This document shows, piece after piece, positions 7,332 to 55,428 of a stretch of 63,457 bases of DNA (its first letter is position 1; each line of letters opens with the position of its first letter). A model generated the notes under the pieces. That model saw only the letters and a list, made by a program, of their open reading frames with translations. It did not search any database and was not told the DNA's origin. Location of the stretch: NCBI GenBank assembly GCA_018819285.1, contig JAHJQM010000023.1, forward strand, positions 1 to 63,457. The letters are read 5' to 3'. Origin of the DNA: Candidatus Omnitrophota bacterium. GTDB lineage: Bacteria > Omnitrophota > Gorgyraeia > Gorgyraeales > Gorgyraeaceae. The position numbers were made by a program, and so were the translations under genes.

Positions 7332-8528
7332 ATGCCTTTAAAAATCGCATTATATTATCCTTATATCCATTTAAGAAGCGGTGTCGAGCGTACGATACTT
7401 GAAGTCTTGAAGCGCTCCAGACATGACTGGCATGTGTTTACTAATCTTTATGAAAAAGATACCACCTACCCAGAATTTGAGAATTTTAAATCCAGGATAA
7501 CGGAATTGAAAAAGATCTCCGTAGAGAGAAGTTATTTTAATACCTTAAGATCAGCATGGATTATCTTTAATCAGGAACTTCCTCTCGAAGGGTTTGATGT
7601 TTTATGCGTGCATAACGAAGGCCTGGGAAGCCTGATAAATTTCAAAAATAAGGATATAACTAAAATTTGCATCTGCTATACCCCATTAAAGGTTATATAT
7701 GACGCTGTCTTGAGGAGAGACTATATTTCTAAAAATTTACATAAGGCCATATTTTATTTTCCAGTTTATTTTTTATTCAAAGTAATAGATAAAAAGGCGT
7801 TTAAATTATATGCCCTGTGTTTTTGTATCAGCAAGGAAGTCAGGGGTAGGATTCTAAAAAATAACCTTCTGCCTGATTATAAATTAAAGGTTTTGAACCT
7901 TGGAGTTGACACAATGTATTTTTCAGGAAACACTGGATATGGGAATTATTTCTTCCACCCAACGCGTATAAAATGGTGGAAGAATATAGAATTATCTATA
8001 GAGGCGTTTAATATATTGCAGATGGAACACGAAGGATTACGTAATTTTAAACTTATAATAGCAGGAGAGCTGTATAAGACAAATAATAGTTATTATGAAA
8101 AATTAAAAAAGATGGCTGCTATGAATAAAAATATAATTATTACCATAAACCCTTCGGAAAAAGATATCCTGAATCTTTACAAAAATTGCCGTGCAGTTCT
8201 CTCAACTACCCTGAATGAAGACTTTGGCCTTACTGTGCTAGAGGGGTTTTCTTTTTCTAAGCCTGTTATTGCTATTAATAACGGTGGGCCAAAGGAGATT
8301 ATAAGAAATGGTATAACAGGATTTTTAAGTTCACCCGATGCAAGAGAATATGCATCTTATCTATGTAAGATAGCTATGGACGCGGAATTGCCAATGCAAA
8401 TGGGTAGTATAGGCAGGAAAGATGTAATAAAATATGACTGGAGCAATTTTATAAACTATATAGATGATTTTTTAGAAGACCTTGCGCTAAACAAAAGAAA
8501 AGGCATAGCCAGGAACCTTAAGTTGTAA
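7332..8528 (+). CDS. Glycosyltransferase family 4
   Basis: Two-domain GT with LSTTLNEDFGLTVLEGFSFSKPVIAINNGGPKEII. Confidence 0.9.
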   Translation: MPLKIALYYPYIHLRSGVERTILEVLKRSRHDWHVFTNLYEKDTTYPEFENFKSRITELKKISVERSYFNTLRSAWIIFNQELPLEGFDVLCVHNEGLGSLINFKNKDITKICICYTPLKVIYDAVLRRDYISKNLHKAIFYFPVYFLFKVIDKKAFKLYALCFCISKEVRGRILKNNLLPDYKLKVLNLGVDTMYFSGNTGYGNYFFHPTRIKWWKNIELSIEAFNILQMEHEGLRNFKLIIAGELYKTNNSYYEKLKKMAAMNKNIIITINPSEKDILNLYKNCRAVLSTTLNEDFGLTVLEGFSFSKPVIAINNGGPKEIIRNGITGFLSSPDAREYASYLCKIAMDAELPMQMGSIGRKDVIKYDWSNFINYIDDFLEDLALNKRKGIARNLKL

Positions 8529-9613
8529 ATAGTAGATGATTTTCTTGAAGGGAATTTGATGGAATAAAAACGGCTGAATTCCTCTTCCGGTATGAATATA
8601 ATAAATTTTATAAATTCCCACAGATAGTCGTATAATAAAATACGTAAAAAGATATAGGCGCATTTTCTAAAAGAAGCGGATTCTATAAGTCTCATAACGC
8701 CTTTATCCTTAACCCTATTTATAAATAATTTTAATAAAGATGCTCTTAATATACCTGGGTAAAACATCCCTAACTCTTTTTTAGATACAGGATATCCAAA
8801 TATTATTTTAACAGAAGCCAGGGAGTAATAAACAATAGAGTTTAGCCTGTTTAATCTGCTGTATTTTGATATATACGTCCAATCTATTTTTTTATCGTAT
8901 TTTTCCATTATCTTATAGATATCATATATTGGTTTTAATGAGAATGGCTTATTAAATCTTCTTAAATGAAGCGTAAGCGAGAATATAGTATCTTCCGGAG
9001 AGAGGATATTTAAAAAAGCATTATCATGCTCAATTTTTTGCAGTCTATTCCATAGCTCAGGTAAAATAATTTTATTTGGCCTTGGAACTGCAAGATCCCA
9101 ATGCAGCTCTGCCATATAGGTGCTGAAAAAAGGCAGATGATGGTAATGGTCAGTATAATATTCTTCTGAAAAATTACCAAGAGCCGCTTTATAGCCAAGA
9201 CCTTGCATGAGCTGTTTAGCTTTTTCTAGATCGTTTTTCTTTATCAAAATATCTATATCAACCATAGGCCTGCTTAAGTCGCTTTGGAAAATGTCGAACA
9301 ATAAAGCCACACCTTTGATAGGGACCAAGGGTATGTCAGCTGTTTCAAATACATTCTGTATATCAATAAACTCTTTTTGCTTAAGCATATTATCTTTGAC
9401 TGTCATCATATAGTTGTTTTTTAGCTTAGCAAATGCAGGATAGCCAATTAATTCTTTGTATCTATCTGATGTTTTTATAGTTAAATAGGCAAGATTTGTA
9501 AGACTATGATATAGAGATTCTTTAAGGATTATCCCTAATTCAGCGTTATTTAAACTTGGAAGAGGAGAATTTTTATTCAATAAAAGACTGGATTTAGATA
9601 ATACATTAAACAT
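8456..9613 (-). CDS. Nucleotidyltransferase family protein (NTP_transf_5 / PF14907-like)
   Basis: IPLVPIKGVALLFDIFQSDLSRPMVDIDILIKKNDLEKA..LGY with downstream HLRRFNKPF; this family recurs in PqqD/HprK-like RiPP and polysaccharide clusters. Confidence 0.75.
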   Translation of the reverse strand: MFNVLSKSSLLLNKNSPLPSLNNAELGIILKESLYHSLTNLAYLTIKTSDRYKELIGYPAFAKLKNNYMMTVKDNMLKQKEFIDIQNVFETADIPLVPIKGVALLFDIFQSDLSRPMVDIDILIKKNDLEKAKQLMQGLGYKAALGNFSEEYYTDHYHHLPFFSTYMAELHWDLAVPRPNKIILPELWNRLQKIEHDNAFLNILSPEDTIFSLTLHLRRFNKPFSLKPIYDIYKIMEKYDKKIDWTYISKYSRLNRLNSIVYYSLASVKIIFGYPVSKKELGMFYPGILRASLLKLFINRVKDKGVMRLIESASFRKCAYIFLRILLYDYLWEFIKFIIFIPEEEFSRFYSIKFPSRKSSTIYNLRFLAMPFLLFSARSSKKSSI

Positions 9614-9812: not shown

Positions 9813-9841
9813 TTGACTAATTTTGATATATCTTTTATACT
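9813..9841 (+). promoter_or_regulatory. Putative sigma70 promoter TTGACT-17-TATACT for the precursor peptide
   Basis: -35 at 9813-9818, -10 at 9836-9841, followed by AAGGAGG (9855-9861) and ATG at 9868. Confidence 0.65.
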
Positions 9842-9867
9842 ATTAATATAAGATAAGGAGGATATGT

Positions 9868-10020
9868 ATGGGTAAGAATAATAAAAAACAATACCAAAAG
9901 CCAGAATACAAAAAGTTTTTTAAAGAACCGCAGTTGAAAAAAGAAGGAAAACTTATTGATCAGATAGGGAAAAGCTGTTCCAGCTGTAGCACTTGTTCCA
10001 GCTGTGCCTGTGGTTCTTAG
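9868..10020 (+). CDS. Candidate Cys-rich RiPP precursor peptide, 50 aa
   Basis: Own reading: MGKNNKKQYQKPEYKKFFKEPQLKKEGKLIDQIGKSCSSCSTCSSCACGS*; strong SD; Lys-rich leader-like N-terminus and Ser/Cys core; upstream of PqqD/radical SAM genes; below ORF-track length cutoff. Confidence 0.75.
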   Translation: MGKNNKKQYQKPEYKKFFKEPQLKKEGKLIDQIGKSCSSCSTCSSCACGS

Positions 10021-10237: not shown

Positions 10238-10573
10238 ATGTTCGATAGCGTAAGATGCGGCAATAAGGGGGATACCGTGCTTGACAAATATGTATTGCCG
10301 GATAAAAAAATTCACTGCCGGATAATCGACGGAGAAACAGTTATTTTAAATTTTAAGGATAATACTTTTTACTTTCTCAATCCCATGGGAAGCTTTATAT
10401 GGAATTTGGCGGATGGCAAAACAAAGGTAAATAAAATCATAGGCGCCATACTTAAAGAATTCGACATCGATCATGAGACAGCAAAGAAAGATACCAGCAG
10501 CTTTATAGAGAGATTATCAAAAAAGGGCATATTGAATTTATATGATAAACCCAAAACAGCGCTTAAGAGTTAA
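10238..10573 (+). CDS. PqqD family protein (RiPP recognition element-like)
   Basis: VILNFKDNTFYFLNPMGSFIWNLADGKTKVNKIIGAILKEFDID; true start may be further in (GTG near 10277). Confidence 0.8.
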   Translation: MFDSVRCGNKGDTVLDKYVLPDKKIHCRIIDGETVILNFKDNTFYFLNPMGSFIWNLADGKTKVNKIIGAILKEFDIDHETAKKDTSSFIERLSKKGILNLYDKPKTALKS

Positions 10574-10823
10574 GTCATCCATAGTTTATACTGAATTGGA
10601 TAACAGAGAAGCTGTTCTTTTAAATTTTAAGACAAAATGTTTTTACAGGCTTAATGAGGTGGGAGCAAAAATCTGGCAGCTATTGGATGGCAAAAATACT
10701 ATTGGAGAAATAACCGATGCGATAGTAAATGAATATGATGTTGATAAGGATAAGGCATTCAATAGCGTAAATCGTCAGATAAAAAAGCTTATAAAAGAGA
10801 AGATGGTAGAAGTTGCGGTTTAA
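10542..10823 (+). CDS. PqqD family protein (second tandem copy)
   Basis: AVLLNFKTKCFYRLNEVGAKIWQLLDGKNTIGEITDAIVNEYDVD. Confidence 0.82.
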   Translation: MINPKQRLRVKSSIVYTELDNREAVLLNFKTKCFYRLNEVGAKIWQLLDGKNTIGEITDAIVNEYDVDKDKAFNSVNRQIKKLIKEKMVEVAV

Positions 10824-10831
10824 TAGATAAT

Positions 10832-11989
10832 ATGGAAATTATGTCGCGTTATTTTAAATTTTTTCGCGCTTTTACCCTTCAATGGCATATAACTGAGAGA
10901 TGTAATTGGAGCTGCAAGCATTGCTATAGGGAAAAAGAAAGCATGAAAGAGCTGCCATTCGCTAAATTATGCGATATCTTTTTCCAGTATCTGGATTTAC
11001 TTAAAGCTTTAAACCTGCCAAAGGGCCATTCTTATCTCAACTTTGCCGGAGGAGAACCATTTATCAGAAAAGATTTTTTCCGGTTATTGGAATTTGTAAA
11101 TAAATATAATAAAGGCAGGTTTAGTGTAGGTATTTTAACCAATGGCTCTCTTGTTAATGAAAAAAATGTCTTAAAGTTGAAATCTTTAGGCGTTAAGAGG
11201 GTACAATTGAGCCTTGAAGGCATGCGGGAAAACAATGACAATATACGTGAAGAAGGTAGTTTTGATGAGGTAGTTGAGAAAATCAAATTATTGATAAATA
11301 CAGGCATACAAACCGCTATTTCTTTTACGCTGACAAGGAAAAATATGGCTGATGTTCCTGCGGTTGTCCAGCTATGCGACAAGTTAGGAGTGGGAAAGAT
11401 TGGCATAAGGAGGTTTGTTCCTATCGGGAAGGGCAAAGAAAATAAGTTAAATTTATTAAGCCCGGCAGAATTAAGAAAGATGTATCATTGGAAGAGAAAG
11501 ATGCGTATTGAATTAATGGCGAAACATAGCAAGCTTCATATTGCCAATGGATGCGAGGATGGTATATTTAACAGCGCTTTAACAAGAGACATGGCGCGCA
11601 GGAAAGTGTACTGCGGGGTAGTTGAAGGCAGAACATTATCTTTGTTCCCCAATGGCGATGTTTTGGCATGCAGGCGGCTTCCGATAAAAGTGGGCAATGT
11701 CCTGCAAAAGAGCTTGCTGGAAATATATTTTTCTTCAGACACGTTGTGGCAGTTGAGAAATTTGAATAATGCGCACTCTTTATGCCAGAGATGCCGCAAT
11801 TTTAAATTCTGCCATGGAGGAGCGCTGTGCATAAGCCATGCATACTTTAATCAATTCTCTGTTCCGGATCCGCAATGTTGGCGCGTTTTTAAAAAGCCTC
11901 CTCTTCAAACCGCTTTTAAAGGGTGGCCGGAAAAGAAAAACCTACATATAACCACAGCCTTTAGTTCGTCTTTTGCAGATGAAAATTAA
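10832..11989 (+). CDS. Radical SAM/SPASM peptide maturase-like protein
   Basis: WHITERCNWSCKHCYRE (CxxxCxxC), C-terminal SPASM-like Cys set (C..LPIKVGNVLQ..C.RC..FKFCHGGALC). Confidence 0.88.
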   Translation: MEIMSRYFKFFRAFTLQWHITERCNWSCKHCYREKESMKELPFAKLCDIFFQYLDLLKALNLPKGHSYLNFAGGEPFIRKDFFRLLEFVNKYNKGRFSVGILTNGSLVNEKNVLKLKSLGVKRVQLSLEGMRENNDNIREEGSFDEVVEKIKLLINTGIQTAISFTLTRKNMADVPAVVQLCDKLGVGKIGIRRFVPIGKGKENKLNLLSPAELRKMYHWKRKMRIELMAKHSKLHIANGCEDGIFNSALTRDMARRKVYCGVVEGRTLSLFPNGDVLACRRLPIKVGNVLQKSLLEIYFSSDTLWQLRNLNNAHSLCQRCRNFKFCHGGALCISHAYFNQFSVPDPQCWRVFKKPPLQTAFKGWPEKKNLHITTAFSSSFADEN

Positions 11990-12983
11990 TTTTACATCAT
12001 ATTTTAATATACGCTATAAGTTCACAGAAACATATCTGATAGGAGGTTTATCTGTAAGGATAATGACAAATAGGAGCTCTTTTTATCGCGCTACTGACAA
12101 AATGTATCTTGTCAAAGACATTGTTAAAAAAAAGCAACCTGATATTGCCATGGCAGTCATTTCAGTCGAGCGCCTTTCTCAGATTCCTATAGATATGCCG
12201 CACGAAACAGATTGGCAGCCTGGAGTCTCTGAAGATTTTAAAGGGCCTCAGTATTTTAAAAATATCAAAGATATCAGATATCTCAGGCATCTTGGAAATT
12301 ATGGTGAAATTGCGCCCATGGCGGGGATTTGCCATCAAAATAAAATTTTATTGTTTATCGCAGGCCAGAATAAACCCATGAGTTTTAGAAATTCCATCCG
12401 CATTATATTGCTGTATTTTTTTAGATGCAGAGGTTTTTTTGCCTTACATACAGCTTATTTGACAAAGGATAAGGTTAGTATATTATTTCCTGGCAATAGC
12501 GGATGCGGGAAAACCACTATTTCTATGAATCTTGCCAAGTCTGGTTTTATTTGCCGTGGAGATGATATATCATTTTTATGCCGTTCAAATTCTAAGATAA
12601 AGGCTTATCCGTTTCCAACCAGAATGCTGCGCAGGGATTATAAAAAGGACACGAGAGTATGCATAAGGCACAAAACTTATTATAAAACAGCCTCTACTCC
12701 AGATTTTATTGTCTTTCCAGAGATAACACATAAAAAGAAAAGTAAACTTATACCTCTTTCTTCAAATGAAGCGATGATGAAGATAATCGGAAATCTCATG
12801 TTCTCATCTCTTGAGCCGGTTAGAGATGATCATGTTAAAGCTATGGAGATTTTAAAAAAGCTGGTTAAACAATGCTGTTCTTATCTGCTTCTTGGCGGAA
12901 AAGATATAATAAAGTCCCCTACTAATTTATCTTTGATTTTAAAGAGGTTGATAAAACATAAATATGAAGATATGCATTATTAG
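11973..12983 (+). CDS. HPr kinase-like (HprK-related) P-loop kinase
   Basis: LFPGNSGCGKTTISMNLAKSGFICRGDDISFL Walker A context typical of HprK-related kinases. Confidence 0.75.
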   Translation: MQMKINFTSYFNIRYKFTETYLIGGLSVRIMTNRSSFYRATDKMYLVKDIVKKKQPDIAMAVISVERLSQIPIDMPHETDWQPGVSEDFKGPQYFKNIKDIRYLRHLGNYGEIAPMAGICHQNKILLFIAGQNKPMSFRNSIRIILLYFFRCRGFFALHTAYLTKDKVSILFPGNSGCGKTTISMNLAKSGFICRGDDISFLCRSNSKIKAYPFPTRMLRRDYKKDTRVCIRHKTYYKTASTPDFIVFPEITHKKKSKLIPLSSNEAMMKIIGNLMFSSLEPVRDDHVKAMEILKKLVKQCCSYLLLGGKDIIKSPTNLSLILKRLIKHKYEDMHY

Positions 12984-14205
12984 CAAATATCCTCCAATAG
13001 AAGGCGGGGTATCGTCCGGGATATACTGGTTAGCCAGAGGATTGGGCGAATTAAATCATAAGGTGCACGTTGTTACTAATTGTATGGAGGTTGAAGAGGG
13101 TTACCGCGAGGAAATCTTAGAAGATGAGCCTGGCCAATTTGAACCAAAGAATGTAAAGGTGCATAGCACAACTCTCAATACGCCATTTTTTATTCCTTCA
13201 TACAATCCGTATCTCTCAAAGTTAGTCAATATAGCTATAGAGGTTATAAGAAAATACGACATAGACCTTATCTATTCAGAATATCTTATGCCTTATGGAG
13301 CGGCGGGTTTAATGGCAAAGTATATTACTAAAAAACCATTTATGGCCGCTCATGCTGGAAGCGATATAACTCGGTTATTTGATTCGCCGTCTTTAAAGTC
13401 GTTTTTTATAGAAATATTTAAAGGTGCTGATAAGATATCGACTACGCAGCTGAGCAGCCAGAAAATTTTAAGGAGATGTAAAATAAGCCGGGATAAATTT
13501 ATATTTGGGTTACGCAGATCCATAGACCTTAAAGCGTTTCACCCTGATGTTAAGCCATTAGGCATATCTTTATATTTAAGGAAAAACAAAAAAGAGAAAC
13601 TACCAGCGTTTTTATATTTAGGCAAAGTTTCAAAGCTTAAAAAATCCTTTAATTTTGTAGATGCGTGCAGTATTATAAAAAAAGAAGAATTTAGGCTGAT
13701 ATTTGTGGTGGGCAATAATGAAAGATCATTATTGCTAAGAAAGTATGTCCACTCAAAAGGATTAGGAGAGAAAGCTATATTTCTGCCTTTTCAAGCTCCA
13801 TGGAGAATGCCGGCTCTTATAAATTCAGCCACATGTGTTGTTTCTCCAGAAACCTCTGAAGAGCCTTATCTTCCAAAAAACACGCATTATCCTAAGATTG
13901 CCAGGGAGGCAATGGCATGCGGCAGGTGTGTTATTATCGGGAAAGGCGTGGCTGAAAAAGGGGTATACCGCATGCTGCAGGATGGCGTAAATAGCTATAT
14001 AGTCGATCCTGATAATACAAAGGGGTTTGCGCAAAGATTGCGTTCAATCGTAAAAAATCCTGATATAACAATAAAAATAGGCCAGGAGGCAAGGAGGTTT
14101 TCTGAAAAGACAGAGAATTTTAATGAAAGCATCCAGCAGTGGACCATGGCTTGCAAGGCGCTTTTATTAGAGCATTCTCTCAAGTCAGAAGGCAGATCGC
14201 CATGA
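12964..14205 (+). CDS. Glycosyltransferase family 4
   Basis: MKICIISKYPPIEGGVSSGIYWLARGLGELNHKVHVVTN..; C-terminal nucleotide-sugar binding region. Confidence 0.88.
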   Translation: MKICIISKYPPIEGGVSSGIYWLARGLGELNHKVHVVTNCMEVEEGYREEILEDEPGQFEPKNVKVHSTTLNTPFFIPSYNPYLSKLVNIAIEVIRKYDIDLIYSEYLMPYGAAGLMAKYITKKPFMAAHAGSDITRLFDSPSLKSFFIEIFKGADKISTTQLSSQKILRRCKISRDKFIFGLRRSIDLKAFHPDVKPLGISLYLRKNKKEKLPAFLYLGKVSKLKKSFNFVDACSIIKKEEFRLIFVVGNNERSLLLRKYVHSKGLGEKAIFLPFQAPWRMPALINSATCVVSPETSEEPYLPKNTHYPKIAREAMACGRCVIIGKGVAEKGVYRMLQDGVNSYIVDPDNTKGFAQRLRSIVKNPDITIKIGQEARRFSEKTENFNESIQQWTMACKALLLEHSLKSEGRSP

Positions 14206-14606
14206 AAGATATTTTTCTTTTTGCAAGAGTTTCTTATCTATTTTTTATCCTGCCAGTCATAATACATATAAAACCTCTTCCTGAAATCCTTAAATCATGG
14301 ACGCCTTGCATGTCTCCTAAATTAAGAGAATGGGATATATTAAAGATAACAAAATATCTTGATTTATTTTTTAAGCTGCGAGCGCTATTTTTTAGCAGGC
14401 GAGGGACCTGTCTTAAAAGATCTCTGATTCTTTATAAATTTTTGAGGGAAAAAGGCATTGAAGTCAGGATTAATATAGGCGTAAAAGGCGACAATAAAAA
14501 GATATATGGCCATGCCTGGCTTACGCTAGATGATAAACCATACCTTGCGCAGCCGCAGATAAACGAAGATTTTAAGGTATGTTTTATTTTTCCTCCCCAT
14601 GATTGA
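14202..14606 (+). CDS. Lasso peptide B2/McjB C-terminal-like transglutaminase-fold leader peptidase
   Basis: TCLKRSLILYKFLREKGIEVRINIGV...YGHAWLTLDDKP: Cys-His-Asp arrangement of PF13471-like proteins; start at 14202 preferred over 14139. Confidence 0.8.
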   Translation: MKDIFLFARVSYLFFILPVIIHIKPLPEILKSWTPCMSPKLREWDILKITKYLDLFFKLRALFFSRRGTCLKRSLILYKFLREKGIEVRINIGVKGDNKKIYGHAWLTLDDKPYLAQPQINEDFKVCFIFPPHD

Positions 14607-54627: not shown

Positions 54628-55428
54628 ATGGACAAAATAGAGGCGTTGAAAGAGATTTTAAAGAAGATGGGCAGAGTGGTGGTGGCATTTTCAGGCGGGG
54701 TGGATAGTAGCTTCCTGCTTAAGATGGCAAAGGATACTTTGCAGGATGGGAATGTCCTGGCTGTAACAGCTGTTTCAGAGACATATACTGGAGCTGAACT
54801 TAAGCAGGCAAAGAGATTTGCAAAAAAGCTAGGAGTTAGGCATAAAATAATTTTTACAAATGAACTTAAAAATAAAAATTTTACAAAAAACCCAATAAAC
54901 AGGTGCTATTATTGTAAAAAAGAATTATTTAGCAAATTAGCTAAAATAGCAAAAAAACTAGATTTTGATTGTGTGTTAGATGCGTCGAATATGGATGATA
55001 GAAAAGATTACAGGCCTGGTAGCAGGGCAAAAAAAGAGTTTAAGGTTAGAAGCCCTCTCATAGAAGCAAGTTTTTCAAAACATGATATAAGAAGCTATTC
55101 TACGAAATTAAAACTAGAGACTGCTATGCTGCCTTCAATGGCATGCCTTGCTTCAAGGTTTCCATATGGCGAAAAGATAAACAAGAAGGTATTGATAAAA
55201 ATAGAGGCAGCAGAAGATTTTATAAAAAAGCTAGGCGCATCTCAAGTAAGAGTTCGTTGCCACAATAATATCGCAAGAATTGAAGTAGAAAAAGAGGATA
55301 TAAAAAGGTTTGTGAATAAAAAATTTTGTGATAAAATAACAAAACGTTTAAAACAGCTTGGGTTTAAGTATATTACACTGGATTTGGAAGGATACAGGAC
55401 TGGGAGTTTAAATGAAGTGTTGAAGTAA
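54628..55428 (+). CDS. larE: LarE-like ATP-dependent sacrificial sulfur transferase
   Basis: VVVAFSGGVDSSFLLKMAKD; NRCYYCKKELFSKLAK; DASNMDDRKDYRPG. Confidence 0.92.
   Translation: MDKIEALKEILKKMGRVVVAFSGGVDSSFLLKMAKDTLQDGNVLAVTAVSETYTGAELKQAKRFAKKLGVRHKIIFTNELKNKNFTKNPINRCYYCKKELFSKLAKIAKKLDFDCVLDASNMDDRKDYRPGSRAKKEFKVRSPLIEASFSKHDIRSYSTKLKLETAMLPSMACLASRFPYGEKINKKVLIKIEAAEDFIKKLGASQVRVRCHNNIARIEVEKEDIKRFVNKKFCDKITKRLKQLGFKYITLDLEGYRTGSLNEVLK

Follow-up and report, generated by a model that had tools for sequence, protein, structure and literature searches.

The probable precursor gene and its neighbors

The window analyzed here, a stretch of 63,457 nucleotides from a Candidatus Omnitrophota bacterium, carries on its forward strand an open reading frame of 50 residues (9868..10020), whose sequence is exactly that quoted in the initial annotation, where it was proposed to be a RiPP precursor. 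The leader comprises residues 1–35/36 and the Cys-rich core approximately residues 36/37–50. The core CSSCSTCSSCACGS (9976..10017, forward strand) has Cys residues at positions 37, 40, 43, 46, and 48, and the Ser/Cys tail described previously corresponds to S36–S50 with these five Cys residues. The precursor matches no Pfam or NCBIfam family, and its C-x2 spacing is unlike that of the named classes, in agreement with the earlier view that the Cys pattern fits no recognizable family. The leader contains two motifs on the forward strand, both identical in the sister locus L004 (DNHS01000056, from Candidatus Omnitrophota bacterium UBA10183), which belongs to a close relative of the same genus and appears to be genome G011. 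The first, YQKPEY (9892..9909), is of the YxxPx-hydrophobic type, lies 28 residues before Cys37, and belongs to a motif class also found in precursors across the phylum Omnitrophota. The second, FKEPQL (9919..9936), lies 19 residues before Cys37, a spacing that other Omnitrophota precursors typically show and that is similar to the one in lasso leaders. These two xxP motifs, the lasso/LPP-type accessory genes, and the wide occurrence of such peptides in the phylum were absent from the initial annotation.

The start signals proposed for this gene are present. A Shine-Dalgarno sequence, AAGGAGG (9855..9861, forward strand), precedes the ATG by 6 nt and is conserved in L004. The sigma-70-like promoter TTGACT-17-TATACT lies at 9813..9841 on the forward strand and is found in the sister as TTGACC and TATACT with the same spacing. 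The match alone is weak evidence, because the AT-rich upstream stretch holds about twice the number of promoter-like sites expected by chance (10 vs. 5.1), so it is the conservation, and not the match, that supports the promoter call.

HMM searches verified the downstream genes that had been read as two PqqD-like proteins and a radical SAM/SPASM protein, and the folds of the single chains are clear from the HMMs. All of them are on the forward strand: PqqDa (10277..10573; PF05402, 66 bits; lasso_PqqD_Bac, 52 bits, below the cut-off of 80), PqqDb (10542..10823; PF05402, 63 bits), and the presumed maturase (10832..11989; PF04055, 73 bits; PF13186, 31 bits) with a CxxxCxxC motif at residues 24–31 and a SPASM domain at residues 261–321. 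The start of PqqDa is more likely the GTG at 10277, as in the sister, than the ATG at 10238. The same strand continues with an HprK-related kinase (11979..12983; TIGR04352, 36 bits against a cut-off of 200) with the P-loop GNSGCGKT, a GT4 glycosyltransferase (12964..14205; PF00534, 65 bits) overlapping the genes on either side, and a lasso B2-type, transglutaminase-like leader peptidase (14202..14606) with aligned Cys, His, and Asp residues. B2 scores 47.8 bits with the lasso_biosyn_B2 model NF033537 (cut-off 33), and its start is probably the ATG at 14202, though the open reading frame opens at the GTG at 14139. On the reverse strand, divergent from the peptide gene, lies an NTP_transf_5 nucleotidyltransferase-like protein (8456..9613; PF14907, 132 bits), conserved in the sister. 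The cluster is surrounded by glycosyltransferases and O-antigen ligase-like genes, followed by rpsO and pnp (both named from their translations), and no transporter gene was found adjacent to it.

Conservation of the peptide and its co-occurrence with the presumed maturase

The orthologue in L004, M(YM)DKNNKKQYQKPEYKKFFKEPQLKKEGKLNNRVGTSCSSCASCTSCA, is 81% identical to the window ORF, and all the cluster genes listed above are conserved there. Over the entire ORF, dN is 0.11 and dS 0.61, and over leader residues 1–29, where only one residue differs, dN is 0.014 and dS 0.40. Judged from these rates, the leader is under purifying selection. The DNA 5' of the ORF is 90–95% identical through the -35 and -10 elements and the ribosome-binding site, and identity drops to 20–50% just 3' of the stop codon, recovering at PqqDa. 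Cys 37, 40, 43, and 46 are retained in the sister, two of them via synonymous TGT/TGC changes, and the core varies mainly at the Ser, Thr, and Ala residues between the fixed Cys residues, thereby keeping the CxxCxxCxxC pattern. Cys48 and the terminal Ser are lost in the sister, which ends in ...SCA. A conserved leader (dN/dS of about 0.03) with a core of variable spacers in a short ORF is what a RiPP precursor is expected to present. The ORF at 9868–10020 is a real peptide gene, and the conservation in the sister species led us to reject a chance ORF.

Among 386 Omnitrophota genomes, the close peptide was found only in the window's genome (G000) and in G011, the same two that have the close radical SAM enzyme; both were absent from the remainder of this set, including the other members of the genus screened. 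Matches of the two-sequence peptide profile across the phylum beyond the two true ones were regarded as noise. The initial annotation had named conservation of the small ORF in relatives bearing the PqqD/radical SAM pair as its test, and the one other genome that has a close radical SAM enzyme indeed has the ORF too, in keeping with a RiPP precursor that is handled by the neighboring PqqD and radical SAM proteins. The reading of the peptide as the predicted substrate of the maturase is thus well supported.

Two RREs and two leader motifs

LppB holds the YxxP leader motif by its Pro and Tyr residues, using N33 and D70, and has F74 in the lining of the cleft (PMC13381572; PDB 9x8z). A residue check against LppB found N/D/F at the YxxP-binding positions in PqqDa and its sister orthologue, so that an RRE with the predicted peptide-binding residues adjoins the precursor gene. 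PqqDb has N/S/Q at these positions, with two of the three residues lost, and its binding site therefore looks altered. The window's genome has only two PqqD matches at E<=1e-9, both in this cluster. The presence of two motifs and two RREs hints at a possible division of labor. PqqDb might serve as an adaptor, either for the second leader motif or for some other enzyme. PqqDb is 85% identical in the sister despite its degenerate YxxP site.

The radical SAM enzyme and its relatives

The radical SAM enzyme is 89% identical in the sister. Its best NCBIfam model is TIGR04340 ("ACGX system"), with 185 bits (cut-off 400), and this model is also the best match of its three nearest relatives. The further nearest models are SbtM thio(seleno)oxazole, GeoRSP, and heme b synthase, of mixed or unknown chemistry. 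No RiPP-maturase equivalog cut-off in NCBIfam was reached (StsB, 83 vs. 625; PapB, 78 vs. 340). In the tree, three further radical SAM enzymes group with the window enzyme with support of 99/94, and its sub-clade adjoins heme-type AhbD/NirJ-like enzymes. More distant homologues (L036–L046) were dropped as comparators, being heme-type with no small Cys-containing ORF nearby, and were retained as negative controls. Beyond the phylum, our analysis comprised one search for close relatives of the radical SAM enzyme.

The locus L034, whose radical SAM enzyme is 45% identical to that of the window, encodes on a single strand an additional, PapB-like radical SAM enzyme, a 62-residue peptide, an HprK-like protein, a PqqD protein, and the close radical SAM enzyme. 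The peptide (...KKYVKPTMEK...DSGCTCCTCGCS) ends in SGCTCCTCGCS. The Cys-dense tail is repeated in a separate lineage, and this independent locus, with its PqqD, HprK-like, and five-Cys-tail genes, corroborates the reading of precursor and maturase. Such Cys density is not shared by all members of the sub-clade, because L033 encodes a peptide with a single core Cys and L035 a His-Xaa-Ser-type system. The L033 peptide (L033:3387-3551, genome G268) is a YxxP peptide with a hydrophobic core (...LAAIFVGTALAGCTPAKS) between a PqqD gene and a B12-type radical SAM gene, next to which the window-type radical SAM gene lies, and the L140 peptide has a similar ...STPAKS end. In L035 (1023-4231, genome G390), HxsB exceeds its cut-off (474 bits vs. 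370), and the extra radical SAM enzyme of the window's sub-clade lies between HxsB and a 198-residue His/Ser/Cys-rich protein.

The mixed chemistry of the nearest models and the heme-type neighbors in the tree would also agree with a peptide that is a substrate of the radical SAM enzyme for something other than thioether formation, such as C–C cross-linking, epimerization, or another change of Cys or Ser, with free Cys residues binding metal or forming disulfides; the CxxCxxC layout could bind metal. We consider this rather unlikely, because the sister core varies mainly between fixed Cys residues, as expected when the Cys residues react, and because the Cys density recurs in L034.

Comparison with known systems

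Paeninodin-type lasso peptides and LPPs have the same accessory gene set as the window cluster, in which the radical SAM enzyme occupies the place of the lasso cyclase. In paeninodin- and pseudomycoidin-type lasso systems (B1, B2, the HprK-like K, and the NTP transferase N), PadeK phosphorylates the C-terminal Ser of the lasso peptide and PsmN decorates it with sugar (PMC9266682). The window cluster shares with them a discrete PqqD-type RRE, B2 with a score above the curated cut-off and its C/H/D residues, the HprK-related kinase, NTP_transf_5, the [Y/F]xxPx-hydrophobic leader motif, and the setting in a polysaccharide locus. The HprK-like protein aligns as H...GNSGCGKT...DD, having the His-Lys-Asp-Asp set reported in lasso-tailoring kinases (PMC9266682). 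Unlike these systems, the window cluster has a radical SAM/SPASM enzyme, a Cys-rich core, and two RREs, and it lacks a lasso cyclase, since the only strong Asn_synthase match in the genome lies on another contig (C50); a weak partial match at window position 54643 is about 40 kb away. No acceptor Asp or Glu for a macrolactam ring follows residue 31 of the precursor. A lasso peptide proper was rejected on both grounds.

LPPs from Bacillota combine an RRE, an HprK-like kinase, an NTP transferase, YxxP leaders, and variable cores, often in capsule loci (PMC13381572). All four of these proteins and leader features are present in the window, and an Omnitrophota relative (L147) has NTP_transf_5 fused to a Peptidase_S24-like domain. 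However, the window cluster has B2 rather than an SpI peptidase, no S24/SpI gene being found between 8456 and 14606, and in addition a radical SAM enzyme. The LPP consensus YxxPxVLxHQxIxFET is not seen. LPPs are phosphorylated on S3, whereas in Omnitrophota precursors it is typically the terminal residue that is a Ser. We rejected LPP membership because SpI is absent from the cluster.

Membership in other radical SAM systems was rejected on curated cut-offs. The window core happens to end in ACGS, but it has no ACGX repeats, and the enzyme falls short of the ACGX-system cut-off. Sactipeptides and ranthipeptides likewise have an RRE and, next to the radical SAM/SPASM enzyme, a short precursor that contains Cys, yet StsB, PapB, and other equivalog models score far below their cut-offs and the C-x2 spacing differs. 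The SynChlorMet cassette (ScmC–ScmF; TIGR04248–TIGR04251) brings together the HprK-related ScmC, the PqqD-like ScmD, and the radical SAM/SPASM proteins ScmE/F, but all four models are below threshold here (ScmC, 26 vs. 125; ScmD, 40 vs. 100; ScmE, 92 vs. 400; ScmF, 82 vs. 400). No precursor is known for the SynChlorMet cassette. We found no specific literature on SynChlorMet, ACGX, or Omnitrophota RiPPs of this kind.

A phylum-wide survey of YxxP precursors

PqqD matches at E<=1e-9 were found in 124 of the 386 Omnitrophota genomes. We searched for small ORFs preceded by a ribosome-binding site, with a [KR]..[YWF]xxPx-hydrophobic pattern, within 4 kb of PqqD. Such YxxP-leader ORFs occurred in 36 of 83 PqqD loci, as compared with 0.8 in the shuffled non-coding DNA control, and removal of three obvious false positives gave a curated set of 36 peptides. 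The precursors tested matched no Pfam or NCBIfam family. Genes for an HprK-like protein (within 5 kb) and NTP_transf_5 (within 6 kb) accompany 33 and 24 of the 36, respectively, and B2 accompanies three; the HprK profile matched none of 11 control loci. The frequent gene order is PqqD, radical SAM, peptide, HprK-like, and NTP_transf_5. At least three Cys residues occur in the last 30 residues of 27 of the 36 peptides. A terminal Ser is found in 23 of 36 and in 8.9% of flanking proteins (p=5e-16, a value that is too small because the surveyed peptides are related to one another). Ser ends occur in 22 of 33 peptides with the kinase and in one of three without it, an association that is not demonstrable (p=0.54), since the kinase is present at nearly every locus. 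Lasso-peptide handling proteins are thus combined with radical SAM enzymes at dozens of comparable Omnitrophota peptide genes that lack annotation. The radical SAM enzymes of most survey loci form a clade apart from the window's sub-clade, indicating that the chassis is common and the maturase different.

The match of the accessory genes to the LPP and paeninodin sets (PMC13381572, PMC9266682) and the location among polysaccharide genes might instead point to a linear LPP- or lasso-like product, acted on by the kinase, the NTP transferase, and B2, with the radical SAM enzyme only making an auxiliary change or acting on something else. This is decidedly unlikely, because the radical SAM gene, placed after the PqqD genes and before the kinase gene, has the same pattern of presence and absence as the peptide, because a radical SAM gene is found no more than 50 bp away from most of the phylum's YxxP precursors, and because the cluster has no lasso cyclase. 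That the ORF encodes a non-RiPP protein, for example a metallothionein-like peptide, a regulator, or a chance product, adjoining RiPP genes by accident is extremely improbable: the peptide is indeed small, Lys-rich, and Cys-rich and has no family match, but the xxP leader motif, the RRE residues, the conservation, the co-occurrence, and the phylum-wide pattern all speak against it.

A possible maturation route

We therefore regard it as probable that the ORF encodes the precursor of a radical-SAM RiPP on a lasso/LPP-type chassis, and that the following route leads to its maturation. PqqDa would bind a leader xxP motif, with LppB and TbiB1 as precedents for leader binding, and present the core to the radical SAM/SPASM enzyme. 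The Cys-packed tail is probably remodeled chemically by this neighboring enzyme, which would make bonds from Cys, most likely thioether cross-links to nearby Ser, Thr, or Ala residues with the loss of two hydrogens per bond; thioether formation is the step that we infer with the least support. The HprK-like kinase could phosphorylate a core Ser, with PadeK and LppK as precedents, and the NTP_transf_5 protein could elaborate the phosphate, as PsmN does. B2, helped by an RRE, would cut off the leader near residues 34–36, following the precedent of lasso systems. The product would be exported, perhaps to act on the cell surface, as suggested by the position of the cluster in a polysaccharide locus. 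Because the sister peptide ends in Ala, phosphorylation of a C-terminal Ser cannot be general for this pair, and the kinase, if acting here, may target a Ser inside the peptide, as happens in LPPs. Several observations count against this route: the sub-cut-off scores of the radical SAM enzyme, its heme-type tree neighbors, the few Cys residues in L033 and the His/Ser-rich protein in L035, the Ala end in the sister, the lack of an adjacent transporter gene, and the inferred starts of PqqDa and B2.

Wider occurrence and core diversity

Judging from its gene content, the window system works like a lasso/LPP chassis plus a radical SAM step. It would join radical SAM peptide modification with paeninodin/LPP-type leader handling, phosphorylation, and sugar-capping, a combination for which we found no description in the literature searched, which left subscription journals and most preprints outside its scope. 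Tentatively, the Omnitrophota peptides could constitute a phylum-wide, undescribed RiPP class, in which YxxP leaders and Cys-bearing, Ser-ended cores are followed by radical SAM/SPASM cross-linking and then by phosphorylation and nucleotidyl- or sugar-capping of the C-terminal Ser by the HprK-like and NTP_transf_5 proteins; the window would represent a branch of extreme Cys density, whose two leader motifs would each find a reader among two RREs. This large uncultured phylum can be searched for precursors overlooked by annotation with the following rule: a small ORF with the [KR]..[YWF]xxPx-hydrophobic pattern by PqqD and radical SAM genes, often Ser-ended. Because HprK-like kinases occur together with Ser-ended precursors, it becomes possible to test directly what HprK-related/PqqD cassettes do.

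The surveyed cores are diverse. L097 (2881-3835, genome G200) has four tandem small YxxP-leader ORFs, three of them with near-identical, Cys-free core ends (...KRIQAASVAEGEFVEGIGH), next to PqqD, HprK-like, and radical SAM genes, representing another kind of core on this chassis. In L109 (6317-6846, genome G251), three tandem, near-identical precursors have the leader KKNYQIPEIEAIEHPEEGTIAHAA and variable Cys-bearing cores. L122 (7239-7427, genome G379) and L175 (4362-4553, genome G098), from two separate species, have nearly identical five-Cys cores (ASCKWGQGSFQCCNWTCPHCTSSSSSAGS), which points to transfer or to strong constraint. L147 (1846-4167, genome G133) encodes, downstream of its YxxP precursor and HprK-like gene, a 773-residue protein in which a Peptidase_S24-like stretch is fused to a methyltransferase and NTP_transf_5; by analogy with SpI in LPP, this protein may supply the leader peptidase as well as a methylation step.
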